Below are positions 11,864 to 33,963 of a stretch of DNA of 40,436 nt, in pieces (the first letter of the stretch is position 1; each line of letters opens with the position of its first letter). The notes below the pieces were generated by a model, which saw only the letters and a program-made list of their open reading frames with translations, ran no database searches and was not told the origin of the DNA. Location of the stretch: NCBI GenBank assembly GCA_949289145.1, contig CASEML010000046.1:1-40436 (forward strand). Direction: 5' to 3'. The position numbers were made by a program, and so were the translations under genes. The stretch comes from an uncultured Eubacteriales bacterium (GTDB taxonomy: Bacteria > Bacillota > Clostridia > Lachnospirales > Lachnospiraceae).

Positions 11864-12325
11864 TTATAAAAACACTCTTACAGTGTCAATATTATTCACA
11901 ACAAAATATGCACAATATTCTTCTGGTTTTACATAAGCAGAAAGTTCTTTGATTTCGCTTTCTTTTCTGCCCATTTCAGCCCAGATTCCTTTGAAACGTT
12001 CCAACAATTCTGTTTCTTCCACTTCAATGTGCTGATACTGTAAAATAAATTTTGCAGCAACTTCTTTTGCTTTTGCAGCTGCTGTTTTCTTTGCTGTTGT
12101 AGTAGTCTTCTTTGCAGCTGTTGTTTTCCTGGCTGTTGTTGTCTTCCTAGTTGTCGTCTTCTTTTCTGCTGCTGCCTTTGGTGCTTCTTCTTTTTCTTCC
12201 GCTTTTACAGGGTCTGCAGCTACTTCTTCCTTTTTTGCAGGTTCTGCCTTGGCAGTCTCAACTTTAGTTGCTGTAACTTTCACTTCTTCTGTTTCTGCTT
12301 TTACTGTTTTTGTTGCCATTTTCAT
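11864..12325 (-). CDS. DUF6465-family protein with a histone-like Lys/Ala/Thr-rich tail
   Basis: The 153-residue protein has two parts. Residues 1-90 are low complexity: first Glu/Val/Lys-rich, then repeated KKTTT, ARKTTAAKK and KKTAAAKAK blocks resembling eukaryotic H1 tails and bacterial histone-like proteins. Residues about 92-153 form a compact domain, AAKFILQYQHIEVEETEL through YFVVNNIDTVRVFL, which I recall as DUF6465 of Lachnospiraceae. The basic tail suggests nucleic-acid binding, but no function is established. AGGAGG lies three bases before the first ATG and nine before a second ATG at 12319; either could be used. It ends at the shared terminator. Confidence 0.72.
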   Translation of the reverse strand: MKMATKTVKAETEEVKVTATKVETAKAEPAKKEEVAADPVKAEEKEEAPKAAAEKKTTTRKTTTARKTTAAKKTTTTAKKTAAAKAKEVAAKFILQYQHIEVEETELLERFKGIWAEMGRKESEIKELSAYVKPEEYCAYFVVNNIDTVRVFL

Positions 12326-12358
12326 ACTCCTCCTAATTCTTTCTTGCTGTACTATATA

Positions 12359-26617: not shown

Positions 26618-27097
26618 TCAACGGATCTGTCTCCATTCTTCCACCAGCCTTTCCAACCGGTAGGAGGCATTTGCAGGGCTGGTGCTTGGCAGTTTGACTG
26701 CCGTTCTATTAAACACCGGCTGGCAATATTTACAGAATAAGCGATAAGAAGTACCACCATTACAATAAATCTGCCTGATATTTGCTGCTTTTAAAATACA
26801 ACTCAGATCATTAGGAACTACATCTTTAATACTGCTGTCTGAAGAACCCTCAATAGTACAGCTGGCGATTACATCCCATACTGCCACATGATTATCCAAC
26901 AATAATTTTTTCTTTTCCTTTACAGAAACAGGTATCTCTTCTCCAAAAATTTCTGCCAGCACTTTCCAGAAACGATTCTGGGGATGTCCGTAAAAGAACT
27001 GGCTTTCTCTGGACTTTACAGAGGGAAAGGAGCCTAAAATCAGTATTTGGGAATGCTCATCATACACCGGCGGTATTTCATGTACTACACGTTCCAT
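26618..27097 (-). CDS. Hypoxanthine/deoxyinosine-DNA glycosylase (UDG superfamily family 6)
   Basis: A 159-residue uracil-DNA-glycosylase-fold enzyme. The first motif is ILILGSFPSVKSRESQFFYG with the following HPQNRFWKVLAEIF, and the last is KLPSTSPANASYRLERLVEEW; these match the HDG group that removes deaminated adenine (hypoxanthine) from DNA and differ from GQDPYH-type uracil glycosylases. No zinc or iron-sulfur Cys cluster is present. Its start overlaps the 3' end of the debranching enzyme gene by 13 bases, so the two are transcribed together even though the jobs seem unrelated. It ends just upstream of the valS promoter. Confidence 0.82.
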   Translation of the reverse strand: MERVVHEIPPVYDEHSQILILGSFPSVKSRESQFFYGHPQNRFWKVLAEIFGEEIPVSVKEKKKLLLDNHVAVWDVIASCTIEGSSDSSIKDVVPNDLSCILKAANIRQIYCNGGTSYRLFCKYCQPVFNRTAVKLPSTSPANASYRLERLVEEWRQIR

Positions 27098-29085
27098 AAT
27101 TCACCTTCCACATAGGCTCTGAGTATCTCACCCACACTCCAGGCCTGTGCATAGCATCCTCTGGAAATATTAGGCTCGTTTCCATCAAAAATCTCTGCAA
27201 TGCTTCCAATACATCCATCCATCAGATGATCTTCCAATGGTGCAATCAGCTTATGGGCAAACTCTCTGCCCTCTGTGGTATCACCATATACTTTCAAATA
27301 TGCTGTGATTAGCCCGCCCAATGGGAATGCCCAACAGGTACCCTGATGGTAAGCCGCATCTCTGTCATGAAGCTTGCCCACATAAATTCCTTTGTATTCT
27401 TCATCTTCCGGTGACAGGGAGCGCAGTCCGTAAGTTGCATACAAATGGGAAACCACCGTATCTACCACTGCTTTTGCCTGTTCTTTTGACAGCATTGTGT
27501 GGGGCAGGGAAACTGCCCAAATCTGATTTGGACGTATTTTTCCATCATTTTCTTCTTCATCCACCACATCATATAAACAATTTTTTTCCGAATTCCAGAA
27601 TTTTTCCACAAAAGAAGCCTTAACTTTTTCTGCCAGTGCGGCATAAACTTCACCATCTGAATCCTTAAAATGCTTTGCCAACTTTGTCATTACACAAAGT
27701 GCATTATACCATAGCGCACTGATCTCCACCGGTTTTCCATGGCGCGGTGTCACTACCCACTCGCCCACACGCACATCCATCCATGTGACCTGATCAAATC
27801 CTCCACCTGCGTGAATCAGGTAGTCCTTATCCATATAAATAGAAAAATCAGTTCCTTTCTGATAATAGTGGATAATCTCTTTTAATTTTGGATAAATTTC
27901 TTTTTGTATAAATTGATAATCTTCTTCTGCTCCGGTATATTCTAAATATTTTTCTACAGAATAGAAGTACCACATAGAGGCATCTACGGTGTTATATAAA
28001 GGTTCTAAGCCTTCATCCGGAAACATATTGGGTACCAGCCCCTTTTTTACATACTGGGCAAAGGTTTTTAATATTTCTCTTGTATCCTCAAAACGTTTTG
28101 TCACCAAAGTAAGCCCCTGCAGTGCCACCATGGTATCTCTGCCCCAGTCTGTAAACCATGGGAGTCCTGCTAACACAGTTTTTCCTCCAGTGGATTCCCG
28201 TTCCACAATAAACTGATCTGCCGCATGAACCAACGTGTTCGCAAAATCATCCTGTAATCCTGCTTTGGTTTCCAACTCCATACAGCGCTTTCTCTCTGCT
28301 TCTATGATAGCAAAACCATCCTTAGGAATTTCTCCTTCTTCTATGGTGCAGATAACAGATATCTTCTTGTGTTCTCCGGGATTTATGGAAACTGCAATCT
28401 CATATGGGGTATAATTATTTTCAATACAGGACATACCTGTGGAAATTTCTGTCTGCAACTCCATGTCTGCATCATAAATCTCTTCCCGTTTGGATATTTC
28501 ACCTTCACTGACATACATACGAATCGTGATATCTTTGTTCTTTTCCGGAATCAAGGTTATAATTTGATCAGAATTAGTTGTTTCAAATTTTAAGTCTGCC
28601 CGTTCACTTCTCTCATGGTGATCCCGATAATTAAATAATGGTACTAATTTAAGTATTGCTTTACAGCTGCCACCTAAAATATCATAAGTACATGAGACTG
28701 TGTTTTTTCCGTGCTGCAGGGAAATAGTCTTGGTAACAAAAATCCCTTCTGCATAATAGGTAAATTCTGGTACATAATCATAACTAAATCTTTGCAGATA
28801 TTTCTGCCCTTCTTCGTTATTTCCTCCCGGTCTTTGGTTTGTAGCAAAAGAATATTCTTTTGCTCCCACTTTCAATTCTTCATTTATTTTTGACAGCACC
28901 ATATAACGCTCTACCGGTGCATGAAGACTAGCAATCAACATTCCATTGTGTTTTCTGGTATGTGCTCCTATAATGGAACTTCCCGCATAACCGCCGATTC
29001 CGTTAGTTACTACCCATTCTCTTTGTATCCCTTCTGAAAAGGATTTCCAATAGCCTTTCCCAAACTTTCTTGCTTTCATTTTCAT
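27085..29085 (-). CDS. Glycogen debranching enzyme (amylo-alpha-1,6-glucosidase)
   Basis: The 666-residue enzyme has the bacterial GDE N-terminal beta-sandwich (from REWVVTNGIGGYAGSSIIGAHTRKHNGMLI to about 270) and a C-terminal alpha/alpha-toroid with FTDWGRDTMVALQGLTL near 315, the acidic HAGGGFDQVTWMDVRVG near 440, and GTCWAFPLGG near 590 and ISRGCYAQAWSVGEILRAY near 640. Such proteins hydrolyse the alpha-1,6 stubs of glycogen limit dextrin in the cytosol. I start at 29085, three bases after AAAGGAAGG; an ATG 12 codons upstream lies inside the upstream palindrome and has no site. It is followed by the glycosylase with a 13-bp overlap. A MITE-like element separates it from the promoter region. 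Confidence 0.9.
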   Translation of the reverse strand: MKMKARKFGKGYWKSFSEGIQREWVVTNGIGGYAGSSIIGAHTRKHNGMLIASLHAPVERYMVLSKINEELKVGAKEYSFATNQRPGGNNEEGQKYLQRFSYDYVPEFTYYAEGIFVTKTISLQHGKNTVSCTYDILGGSCKAILKLVPLFNYRDHHERSERADLKFETTNSDQIITLIPEKNKDITIRMYVSEGEISKREEIYDADMELQTEISTGMSCIENNYTPYEIAVSINPGEHKKISVICTIEEGEIPKDGFAIIEAERKRCMELETKAGLQDDFANTLVHAADQFIVERESTGGKTVLAGLPWFTDWGRDTMVALQGLTLVTKRFEDTREILKTFAQYVKKGLVPNMFPDEGLEPLYNTVDASMWYFYSVEKYLEYTGAEEDYQFIQKEIYPKLKEIIHYYQKGTDFSIYMDKDYLIHAGGGFDQVTWMDVRVGEWVVTPRHGKPVEISALWYNALCVMTKLAKHFKDSDGEVYAALAEKVKASFVEKFWNSEKNCLYDVVDEEENDGKIRPNQIWAVSLPHTMLSKEQAKAVVDTVVSHLYATYGLRSLSPEDEEYKGIYVGKLHDRDAAYHQGTCWAFPLGGLITAYLKVYGDTTEGREFAHKLIAPLEDHLMDGCIGSIAEIFDGNEPNISRGCYAQAWSVGEILRAYVEGELWNV

Positions 29086-29105
29086 ATACCTTCCTTTATA
29101 TTTTC

Positions 29106-29191
29106 GTAACAGTTGAACCATGATATGTCATACAAGTGCATTATGCTGGCACAAAATGCACTTGTATGACATATCATGGCTGAACTGTTAC
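29106..29191. mobile_element. 86-bp near-perfect palindrome with 8-bp target duplication (MITE-like)
   Basis: Arms of 37 bases at 29106-29142 and 29155-29191 match in 35 positions (mismatches only at arm positions 10 and 12), with a 12-base centre. The ends are GTAACAGTT and AACTGTTAC. Immediately outside, ATATTTTC occurs at 29098-29105 and again at 29192-29199: a perfect 8-bp direct repeat, as a transposon insertion leaves. The element carries no gene. It lies 20 bp before the start of the debranching enzyme, so the mRNA would carry a stem of over 30 base pairs next to its ribosome binding site. I do not know the parent transposon; 8-bp duplications occur in several IS families. Confidence 0.85.
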
Positions 29192-29499
29192 ATATTTTCC
29201 ACTGCTTTTTCATATCCATTATGACAAATTCTCCCATATATCCCTAATCTTTTTCTCATCTTCCCCGTATTTTTCTGCTGTCTATATGTTTTTACCTTAT
29301 CCACAAAAATTGCGTAGTCCTGCAGAGGCCTGCAGTTCATCTGCTTCATCATAGTTAGTATCATTCAGTGCATTATACAGTGCAAGCAAATTTTCTTTCT
29401 TTTCTTCCCTGCCAAAGATAAGCCGGAACAGCCTGTCTTTATGCTCCCGATTAATTTTTATTTCTGGTGCCGCATTCTTTATTTTTCATGTTCCTGCAT
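29188..29499 (-). pseudogene. Rpn-family PD-(D/E)XK nuclease pseudogene
   Basis: An AGGAGG site and ATG at 29499 open MQEHEK, then one A missing from an A-run shifts the frame; the next frame reads NAAPEIKINREHKDRLFRLI and on to LLALYNALNDTNYDEADEL, the standard N-terminus of Rpn nucleases. Near two CCTGCAG copies (29319-29325, 29329-29335) the frame shifts again to LQDYAIFVDKVKTYRQQ, which resembles the later part of the same family; about 180 residues holding the catalytic core are missing. The frame runs into the palindromic element. It is one of two Rpn remnants in the window. Confidence 0.68.
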
Positions 29500-29630
29500 A
29501 TTCCTTCCTCCTGCTCTTTTGCGAACAGGAATCTATGCATGTTTCTTCTTTCCTATCCGCCATGTTAAGTTTTATTCATATGGGGATAGTCAATCGAAAT
29601 GATCAAGATGTTTCCCAGATATGTATTTAT

Positions 29631-29659
29631 ATTGTAATGTTTTGGAGAAGGGATGTCAA
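29631..29659 (-). promoter_or_regulatory. Strong promoter upstream of the Rpn remnant and debranching enzyme
   Basis: Minus strand: -35 TTGACA (29654-29659), 17-bp spacer, -10 TACAAT (29631-29636). It reads through the dead Rpn gene and the palindrome to the debranching enzyme. It may be the old Rpn promoter now driving the glycogen gene. The rest of the 29192-29765 gap holds a weak stem AGGCC/GGCCT near 29694-29707, downstream of the SUF pair, and nothing else that I recognise. Confidence 0.6.
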
Positions 29660-29765
29660 TGATTTTTTGGCACCCCTTATGAACTGTTCCTGAAGGCCGA
29701 TAGGCCTGAATATAACTACTTAGCTTTAGAATTGCCATAACAGACTTACCTTAGCTCCCCTTGTA

Positions 29766-30683
29766 TTATTTTAAAAATCCACTGATAATCTGCGCTTCCG
29801 CTTCTTGTTCCGTAAGCCCTAATGTCATTAATTTGATAATCTGCTCTCCAGCAATTTTACCAATAGCAGCTTCATGAATCAGGCTGGCATCAATGTGATT
29901 AGCGGTAATTTCCGGAATGGCACTGACACTGGCATTATCCATAATAATCGCGTCACACTCTGTATGACCGCTGCACTTATTATTTCCGTTAATTTTAGAT
30001 AAAAATAACTGATGAGAATCGTCTTTTGCCACAGAACGTGAAATTAAATGGGCACCTGAATTTTCACCATCTAAATCCACTTCAAAGTTAGTTTCCGCAG
30101 TCTGATTTCCATGAGTCATAATTTTTTCTTTTATTACAAGAGTCGCATCATTTTTTAATTTTGCCTTGGTAACTCTCTTGGTGGAATCCACTCCTTTAAT
30201 CTGAACCGTGTCCATCTCCATGTAACCGCCATCCTCAATCTCCACAATAGTGGCAGGATTCATCACACGTTTCCCATTTCCGTCACCCTCACCATAATGC
30301 TTTTCCACATATTTCACCTTGGAGTTCTTACCCACAAAGAAACTATGGATTCCATCGTGTTCTGAATCACTGTCACCACTATTATGAATTCCGCAGCCGG
30401 CAATAATGGTTACATCACAATCCTCACCAATAATAAAGTCATTATATACCATTTCCTTTAAGCCGCTCTTACTTAACAGCACCGGAATATGAACACTTTC
30501 ATTCTTTGTGCCATCCTTGATAATAATATCAATTCCCGGCTTATCTGTCTTTGTAACAATATCAATATTGGCTGTTGTATTTCTTCCGGTAGCTTCTCCG
30601 TTTGCCCTGATGTTATAAGCCCCTTCCGGTACCTCATGCAATCCGGCAACCTGCTCTAATAAACTCATTTGTATTGCATCCAT
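29766..30683 (-). CDS. SufB/SufD-family scaffold of a minimal SUF system
   Basis: A 305-residue beta-helix protein of the SufBD family. Family features are ENSGAHLISRSVAKDDSHQLFLSKI, SGHTECDAIIMDNASVSAIPEI and the closing HEAAIGKIAGEQIIKLMTLGL. It is shorter than SufB (about 465) and close to the single SufB-like partner of the two-gene minimal SUF (SMS) arrangement found in anaerobes and archaea; there is no sufS, sufU or second sufB/D here. It should bind the SufC ATPase in the cytosol and help assemble iron-sulfur clusters. The ATG at 30683 lies two bases after the sufC stop; the AAAGGAG site is in the sufC tail. Confidence 0.88.
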   Translation of the reverse strand: MDAIQMSLLEQVAGLHEVPEGAYNIRANGEATGRNTTANIDIVTKTDKPGIDIIIKDGTKNESVHIPVLLSKSGLKEMVYNDFIIGEDCDVTIIAGCGIHNSGDSDSEHDGIHSFFVGKNSKVKYVEKHYGEGDGNGKRVMNPATIVEIEDGGYMEMDTVQIKGVDSTKRVTKAKLKNDATLVIKEKIMTHGNQTAETNFEVDLDGENSGAHLISRSVAKDDSHQLFLSKINGNNKCSGHTECDAIIMDNASVSAIPEITANHIDASLIHEAAIGKIAGEQIIKLMTLGLTEQEAEAQIISGFLK

Positions 30684-33841: not shown

Positions 33842-33926
33842 ATCCTTATCCTTTCTGAAATACAATCGCTTTTTGTTTCTTAATAATATTATTTTTTATA
33901 ATATTATATGTCGTATAATATATATT

Positions 33927-33963
33927 ATATGATATATAATATCATATTCCACGCAGTTGTCAA
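33927..33963 (-). promoter_or_regulatory. padR promoter with palindromic operator
   Basis: Minus strand: -35 TTGACA (33958-33963), 16-bp spacer, -10 TATTAT (33936-33941). A perfect inverted repeat ATATGATAT (33927-33935) / ATATCATAT (33939-33947) covers the -10. The 60 bp further downstream are almost pure A/T with repeated TATAATAT. Autorepression by PadR is inferred. Confidence 0.65.

Follow-up and report, generated by a model that had tools for sequence, protein, structure and literature searches.

A palindromic mini-element beside a glycogen debranching enzyme gene in a Lachnospiraceae genome: a probable MITE-type insertion with IS66-family ends

Introduction

Next to the start of a glycogen debranching enzyme gene, the stretch of DNA analyzed here (the window, 40,436 nucleotides in length) contains a near-perfect palindrome, and this raises the questions whether the palindrome is a mobile element, from which larger unit it derives and whether it influences expression of the gene. 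The palindrome is very probably a non-autonomous insertion of the MITE type with IS66-family, ISBst12-like ends, representing the hairpin head of a structured element of approximately 163 bp from which the tail was lost. In support of this explanation, the characteristic ends, the 8-bp target duplication, further copies, a sister copy that is absent in two congeners, a long form of the element and, in a congener, a transposase-encoding element bearing identical ends were observed. The comparisons included the window's own genome (G000, 88% complete) and four congeners (G001–G004).

The Palindrome and Its Insertion Site

The original prediction described an 86-bp palindrome with two 37-base arms differing at two positions, and extent and arms were both recovered, the outer arms matching at 35/37 bases (Table 1). 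A repeat search identified it as the longest inverted repeat of the window, with 40-nt arms that are 93% complementary and separated by a spacer of 6 nt. The perfect 8-bp duplication proposed for both sides was confirmed, the two flanking copies of ATATTTTC being equal at 8/8 bases. The element was also said to carry no gene, and indeed no ORF of 100 or more amino acids touches it apart from an extended debranching enzyme ORF, which overlaps it by 16 bp; a further in-frame ATG lies within the element at position 29121 and the ORF finder therefore carries the debranching enzyme gene into it. Several features by which MITEs are recognized are found at this site, i.e., a size below 500 bp, lack of coding capacity, terminal inverted repeats and an 8-bp duplication, together with multiple copies at unrelated sites in the own genome.

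Table 1. Positions of the features at the insertion site, given in coordinates of the window.
Feature	Position	Strand	Remark
Gene for glycogen debranching enzyme, candidate starts 29085 and 29079	27085..29085	-	PF06202, PF12439, TIGR01561 above cut-off
Probable Shine-Dalgarno sequence AAAGGAAGG (debranching enzyme gene)	29089..29097	-	adjoins target duplication, 8 bases from stem foot
Target duplication, left 8-bp copy ATATTTTC	29098..29105	.	
Near-perfect palindromic mini-element, 86 bp, head-only shortened form	29106..29191	+ (head-first strand)	opposite to debranching enzyme gene
Left terminal repeat GTAACAGTTGAACC	29106..29119	+	2 mismatches vs GTAACAGTTCAGCC
Right terminal repeat GTAACAGTTCAGCC	29178..29191	-	exact
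Target duplication, right 8-bp copy ATATTTTC	29192..29199	.	
Decayed remnant between sufB/D gene and debranching enzyme gene; element went into or beside it	29200..29765	-	absent here in four congeners
Promoter-like TTGACA-17-TACAAT, 11/12 matches, reading towards element and debranching enzyme gene	29631..29659	-	consensus match only

Folding of the 171-nt stretch 29070-29240 on the minus strand gave a predicted energy of -61.8 kcal/mol (z -8.1), which was reached by 0/200 shuffled sequences, and the fold is dominated by the stem of the palindrome. Sub-threshold matches of the palindrome to Rfam microRNA families were dismissed, because long near-perfect hairpins attract such matches. Elsewhere in the window there is an AT-rich palindrome (33897-33946; overlapping 29-nt arms, 90% complementary), and degenerate repeats at 12072-12332 lie mostly within a minus-strand ORF of 153 amino acids (11864-12325).

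The remnant of approximately 0.57 kb upstream of the element contains a 57-aa open piece without Pfam hit and is related to repeated sequences in the congener G004 (contig C61, 81% over 306 bases). By its look, the decayed gene upstream of the element may be "Rpn-like", a name to which no Pfam hit corresponds. In G001–G004 the debranching enzyme gene begins no more than approximately 50 bases after the sufB/D gene ends, and the DNA surrounding the insertion in the window is absent.

Copies, Target Duplications and a Sister Copy Missing in Two Congeners

The original prediction read the palindrome as a mobile element bearing the footprint of a transposition event and proposed to search for further copies. 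In the own genome, 33 DNA matches to the 86 bp correspond to 16 places. Nine of these elements measure 163 bp and five 86-87 bp, a further one measures 124 bp, and the smallest, of 66 bp, retains the left arm alone; moreover, this genome carries a 53-bp element consisting of the ends only. Among 98 genomes, the 86-bp query matched three, i.e., the own genome and the congeners G003 and G004, and relatives of the element are present in other genera. Element searches of plasmid records and viral-contig scans for the head and for two tail patterns returned nothing. When ORFs are called naively, the 26 copies examined lie between them, overlapping ORF ends by at most 27 bases, and one copy is located under a doubtful 100-aa ORF.

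At the loci analyzed, duplications of at least 7/8 bases flank 12/17 elements of 160-168 bp (shuffled pairs 5.7%) and 24/33 elements of 130-136 bp (shuffled pairs 2.4%). For elements of 31-33 bp the count is 9/50 (shuffled 0.5%), many of these being heads within longer elements. The class of the window copy itself, 84-88 bp, shows such duplications in 3/10 cases (shuffled pairs 4.1%), and this weakness argues against the explanation favored here.

Furthermore, a sister copy located between leuB and ilvD in the own genome, the identities of both neighbor genes being confirmed, is flanked by the duplication AGAATCTA and is missing from the same site in G001 and G002; in G001 one near copy of the AGAATCTA target remains. 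The DNA preceding ilvD is different in G004, and no match for this site was obtained in G003. It might be argued that the palindrome is not mobile and represents a chance or locally made inverted repeat, e.g., one generated by template switching, which according to the excerpted source can make and keep hairpins (PMC8794818). The many copies at unrelated sites with shared ends and 8-bp duplications, as well as the sister copy missing from its site in two congeners, make this reading highly improbable. These observations bear out the proposed footprint and support the conclusion that the window palindrome is a transposable element.

Long, Short and Ends-Only Forms

The usual form of the element is 163 bp long and consists of one end, the hairpin head, a tail of approximately 80 bases and the other end, and in short forms the head is joined straight to the outer end. 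The copy in the window is one of these short forms of the element of approximately 163 bp. The right junctions vary among the short copies (GAGCAGAAC, GGGCTGAAC, GAGCTGAAC, GAGCGGAATTG and GGCTGAAC), and such differing junctions fit repeated deletions between the short imperfect repeats, inner GAGCGGAAC and outer GGGCTGAAC, by which the short forms would arise. Loss of the tail from the structured element would leave the head and the outer end, i.e., the palindrome of the window.

A second mini-element was observed in G001, which is 134 bp long (e.g., L074:4935-5068) and has the same ends with a different tail and a head of 31 bp consisting of the ends only. It occupies at least 41 places, some of them cut by contig ends, a count for which 40/235 candidates were scored. 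Inspection of its tail by eye showed a terminator-like hairpin, AAATCGGGCAA...TTGCCCGATTTTT. In the same genome, free-standing copies of 31-32 bp consist of two ends and a spacer of 3-4 bases, and four of them carry perfect 8-bp duplications (L075:11327-11357, L078:3987-4017, L133:2820-2850 and L082:11350-11381). These free-standing copies are either mobile units of very small size or 134-bp elements that were shortened in place by deletion.

A Putative Transposase Partner

The 13-base end GTAACAGTTCAGC occurs, with at most one mismatch, 69, 237, 129, 20 and 72 times in G000 to G004, respectively, compared to 0-3 occurrences of a reversed control pattern. The proposed search for a transposase element with the same ends was successful in the congener G004 and negative in the own assembly. 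The element in G004 (L066, G004:C9:1154-2968) is 1815 bp long, carries an exact GTAACAGTTCAGC at both ends and encodes a single IS66-family transposase of 505 amino acids, which matches PF03050 above the cut-off (76.8 bits) and NCBIfam NF033517 below it (157.9 bits, cut-off 180). A transposase of the IS66 type acting in trans would have moved the window element. The sequence shared by L066 and the mini-elements comprises the ends of approximately 14 bp only; nothing in common was seen beyond these, and the window element is therefore unlike a simple internal deletion of L066.

Two observations count against the explanation at this point. L066, the sole full-length transposase element seen, is without target duplication, as only 1/8 bases agree between its flanks. 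Moreover, no relatives of its transposase were found in the fragmented assemblies of G000, G001 and G002, though G001 harbors the other same-ended element in such numbers. Incomplete transposase copies at or near contig edges are present in two further genomes. G408, which belongs to another genus, carries two relatives with 82-83% amino acid identity, in which the same end is located 47 bp beyond the transposase match, and G003 carries two transposase fragments at contig edges, one of them with the same end at the same 47-bp spacing. Among 397 genomes of the family searched with the transposase, G408 alone passed the strict cut-off of E 1e-60. A plasmid search for the partner transposase returned 45 records, all below 60% identity, and a viral-contig scan for it found nothing.

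Mirrored Changes in the Arms of the Hairpin

The near identity of the two arms had been interpreted as a sign of recent insertion or of active maintenance. In an alignment of 27 heads from three genomes (24 of them distinct), from which L042, L048, L051 and L028:1164 were left out due to contig-end cuts or an incomplete head, 10/24 stem pairs are changed on both sides (35 cells), which was observed in 0/500 shuffles, and slid controls gave 0-2 pairs. In single copies, such as L084:11564 and L028:2576, changes of several bases in one arm are mirrored in the other. As the arms change together across copies, their near identity is alone no proof of a recent insertion, and of the two interpretations maintenance is the better one.

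An RNA under selection should favor G-U pairs on its own strand. This preference is not seen in the heads, where 20/648 cells are non-Watson-Crick, comprising 6 G-T, 10 A-C and 4 others when sorted by hand. Template switching during replication, a mechanism known to create and to maintain hairpins in the excerpted source (PMC8794818), selection for the folded shape, or both, would keep the arms alike. Inversion of the loop, which is a further sign of template switching, was not noticed on visual inspection of the oriented heads in the alignment, the orientation of which is independently anchored in tailed copies only.

A Structured Element Across the Family and Its Relation to Clostridiales-1

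Relatives of the 163-bp form were detected in 38/397 family genomes sampled, the 38 including G002 and the own genome, and in 34/334 genera, with at most two candidates scored per genome. Outside the genus 39 places were fetched, 7/39 of which show no recognizable end pair. The flanks were compared for 35/39 (all except L174, L178, L185 and L198); the longest run common to both flanks is exactly 8 in 11/35 loci and 2-5 in the other 24, and shuffled flanks reach at least 8 in 1.5%. Some copies have the internal structure with other terminal bases, namely L168, L189, L191, L192 and L196; of these, L168 has variant ends GTAACCAGTTC with an 8-bp repeat of its own, and the remaining four show none. 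Head-to-tail arrays of the structured element with a spacing of approximately 160-166 bp occur in L201 (G250:C56:8850-9700) and L205:99-427.

Of the loci outside the genus, 34/39 were combined with five within it in an alignment of 39 sequences from 26 genomes (A3). Omitted were L174, which lacks its left end, L176, which nearly duplicates L175, L178 and L185, which the motif search did not locate, L198 (contig start, odd left end) and G002_117 (wrong orientation in the earlier alignment A2). Besides an outer stem and the hairpin of the head, the fold includes two long-range helices as well as two short hairpins. Double changes affect 23 of the 41 consensus pairs (216 cells), compared to 0/500 shuffles and at most 14 pairs and 57 cells in slid controls. 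These counts were made on the alignment from which the structure itself was derived, and they are biased in its favor. The median identity between genomes is 0.44 for the heads, which still pair, and 0.74 for the tails. On the head-first strand, 34 G-U cells compare with 20 A-C cells overall (p 0.08), and the numbers are 14 and 13, respectively, when the head is excluded.

The long form also resembles the Rfam family RF01699 (Clostridiales-1). The matches extend over model positions 1-166/166 and are always on the head-first strand, with scores of 34.1-38.5 bits that do not reach the gathering score of 48. At E 0.001, 6/15 sources match over the full length and 9/15 show no match, and the gathering cut-off of 48 bits was reached by 0/20 loci. 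The head-only window copy did not match RF01699, with E values of up to 1 admitted. Six stool contigs labeled as bacteriophage in unverified records all contain the element according to model R1, and 4/6 match RF01699 over 1-166/166, again sub-threshold. Sub-threshold Rfam matches are mostly due to chance, and the link to RF01699 therefore rests on the full length of the matches, their strand, shared motifs and their repetition in different genera.

Covariation is usually taken as a sign of RNA function. It is conceivable, though not the likelier case, that the parent of approximately 163 nt is primarily a functional structured RNA of the Clostridiales-1 type that turned mobile, the window hairpin being a broken copy. 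The double changes described above, the diverging heads that maintain pairing, the full-length RF01699 matches on one strand and several copies retaining the structure though neither terminal GTAA/TTAC nor duplications are seen are in line with this. However, G-U is not clearly commoner than A-C in the alignment, among close copies the ratio is even 6 to 10, and the orientation with respect to co-directional neighbor genes is mixed (7 same and 12 opposite in 19 copies counted by hand, p 0.36). Covariation together with target duplications and without clear bias for wobble pairs means that a cause on the level of the DNA is possible. A further tentative proposal is that Clostridiales-1 and the element of approximately 163 nt form one superfamily of structured, IS66-mobilized elements across the Lachnospiraceae, the fold of which would be selected to serve the element itself, e.g., as folded RNA or single-stranded DNA bound by the transposase or a host factor. 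Hairpin-only copies of the window type and the 31-bp ends-only copies of a congener might then be products of decay or escape.

Likely Effect on the Debranching Enzyme Gene

The glycogen enzyme stated to lie next to the element was verified as debranching enzyme by its domain matches. A distance of 20 bp from the element to the start codon had been given, which applies to the ATG at 29085 and becomes 26 bp if the ATG at 29079 is the start. Under model R1 the window copy scores 42.3 bits on the plus and 34.1 bits on the minus strand; the head-first strand is the plus strand, and the debranching enzyme transcript would therefore carry the opposite one. In this mRNA a long stem would end 20-26 nt ahead of the start codon. 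The original prediction placed a very long RNA stem beside the ribosome binding site; blocking of this site is not predicted, the mean unpaired probability of the Shine-Dalgarno sequence being 0.90 with and 0.82 without the element, and occlusion by the stem was accordingly rejected. The reading as terminator was rejected as well, as no terminator-like site was found in 29050-29900.

A regulatory switch, in which the stem lowers or stabilizes expression of the debranching enzyme, is considered rather unlikely. The position of the very stable stem would suit such a role, as would the promoter-like site that precedes the element by 0.44 kb, which by its position could drive the gene, though with two promoter-like sites found compared to a shuffle mean of 3.3 such sites are not above chance. 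The Correia element in the mtrCDE mRNA of Neisseria gonorrhoeae, which is cut by RNase III according to the excerpted source (PMC10969869), offers a precedent. RNase III may likewise cut the leader stem of the debranching enzyme mRNA, leaving the Shine-Dalgarno sequence free. Against a switch stand the unreduced accessibility, the lack of terminator-like sites in the region searched and the spread of element copies over many different intergenic sites. The effect of the insertion on the gene, as judged from these predictions, is probably neutral or mild.

Discussion and Comparison With Known Systems

Taken alone, the window copy is an ordinary insertion, the effect of which is uncertain and probably small. 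The interesting part is the structured mobile family from which it derives and a possible kinship to an orphan Rfam family. An orphan class of "candidate structured RNA" without assigned function may be, or may be close kin of, a mobile element. Mobility, if true, could explain why such a fold is present repeatedly in some genomes and absent in others, and it makes the function of Clostridiales-1 testable. In the open-licence literature on RF01699, the end sequence, IS66 MITEs and Lachnospiraceae MITEs, no recognizable report on mobility of Clostridiales-1 was found. In the excerpt of the 2010 paper, Clostridiales-1 is described as "probably" an RNA, probably not cis-regulatory, from Clostridiales and the human gut (PMC2864571).

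The long form and RF01699 have a GCUUGC-type apical loop and the motifs UGAGCA and UGCGAAU in common, but the consensus outer stem of RF01699 is UGAUGCC...GGCAUCA, in contrast to the GTAACAGTTCAGCC ends of the element. The closest parallel for the ends is the ISBst12 group of the IS66 family, for which the excerpted source describes ISDge4 as an element with one ORF only, an 8-bp repeat and the ends GTGACTACTCAGCA and GTAACTGCTCAGCA (PMC12898284). The window element shares with this group the GTAA-type ends and the 8-bp duplication (PMC12898284), and the putative partner L066 likewise has a single DDE ORF; unlike these elements, the window element is without a gene.

The mirrored multi-base changes in the arms and the lack of a wobble bias resemble quasipalindrome mutations caused by template switching (PMC8794818). 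In the excerpted sources these are described for hairpins generally (PMC8794818; PMC8604942), whereas here they occur within a family of mobile elements, with template switching as a possible cause. Finally, bacterial MITEs such as Correia, ERIC and MITECca01, and also MITEAba12, are in the excerpted account short, non-coding and intergenic, with terminal repeats and target duplications, as is the window element, and they give rise to stem-forming transcripts, as predicted for the window element (PMC10969869). The family described here differs from them in that the 163-bp parent keeps a covarying fold of several helices across many genera, of which the form in the window has retained little beyond one hairpin.
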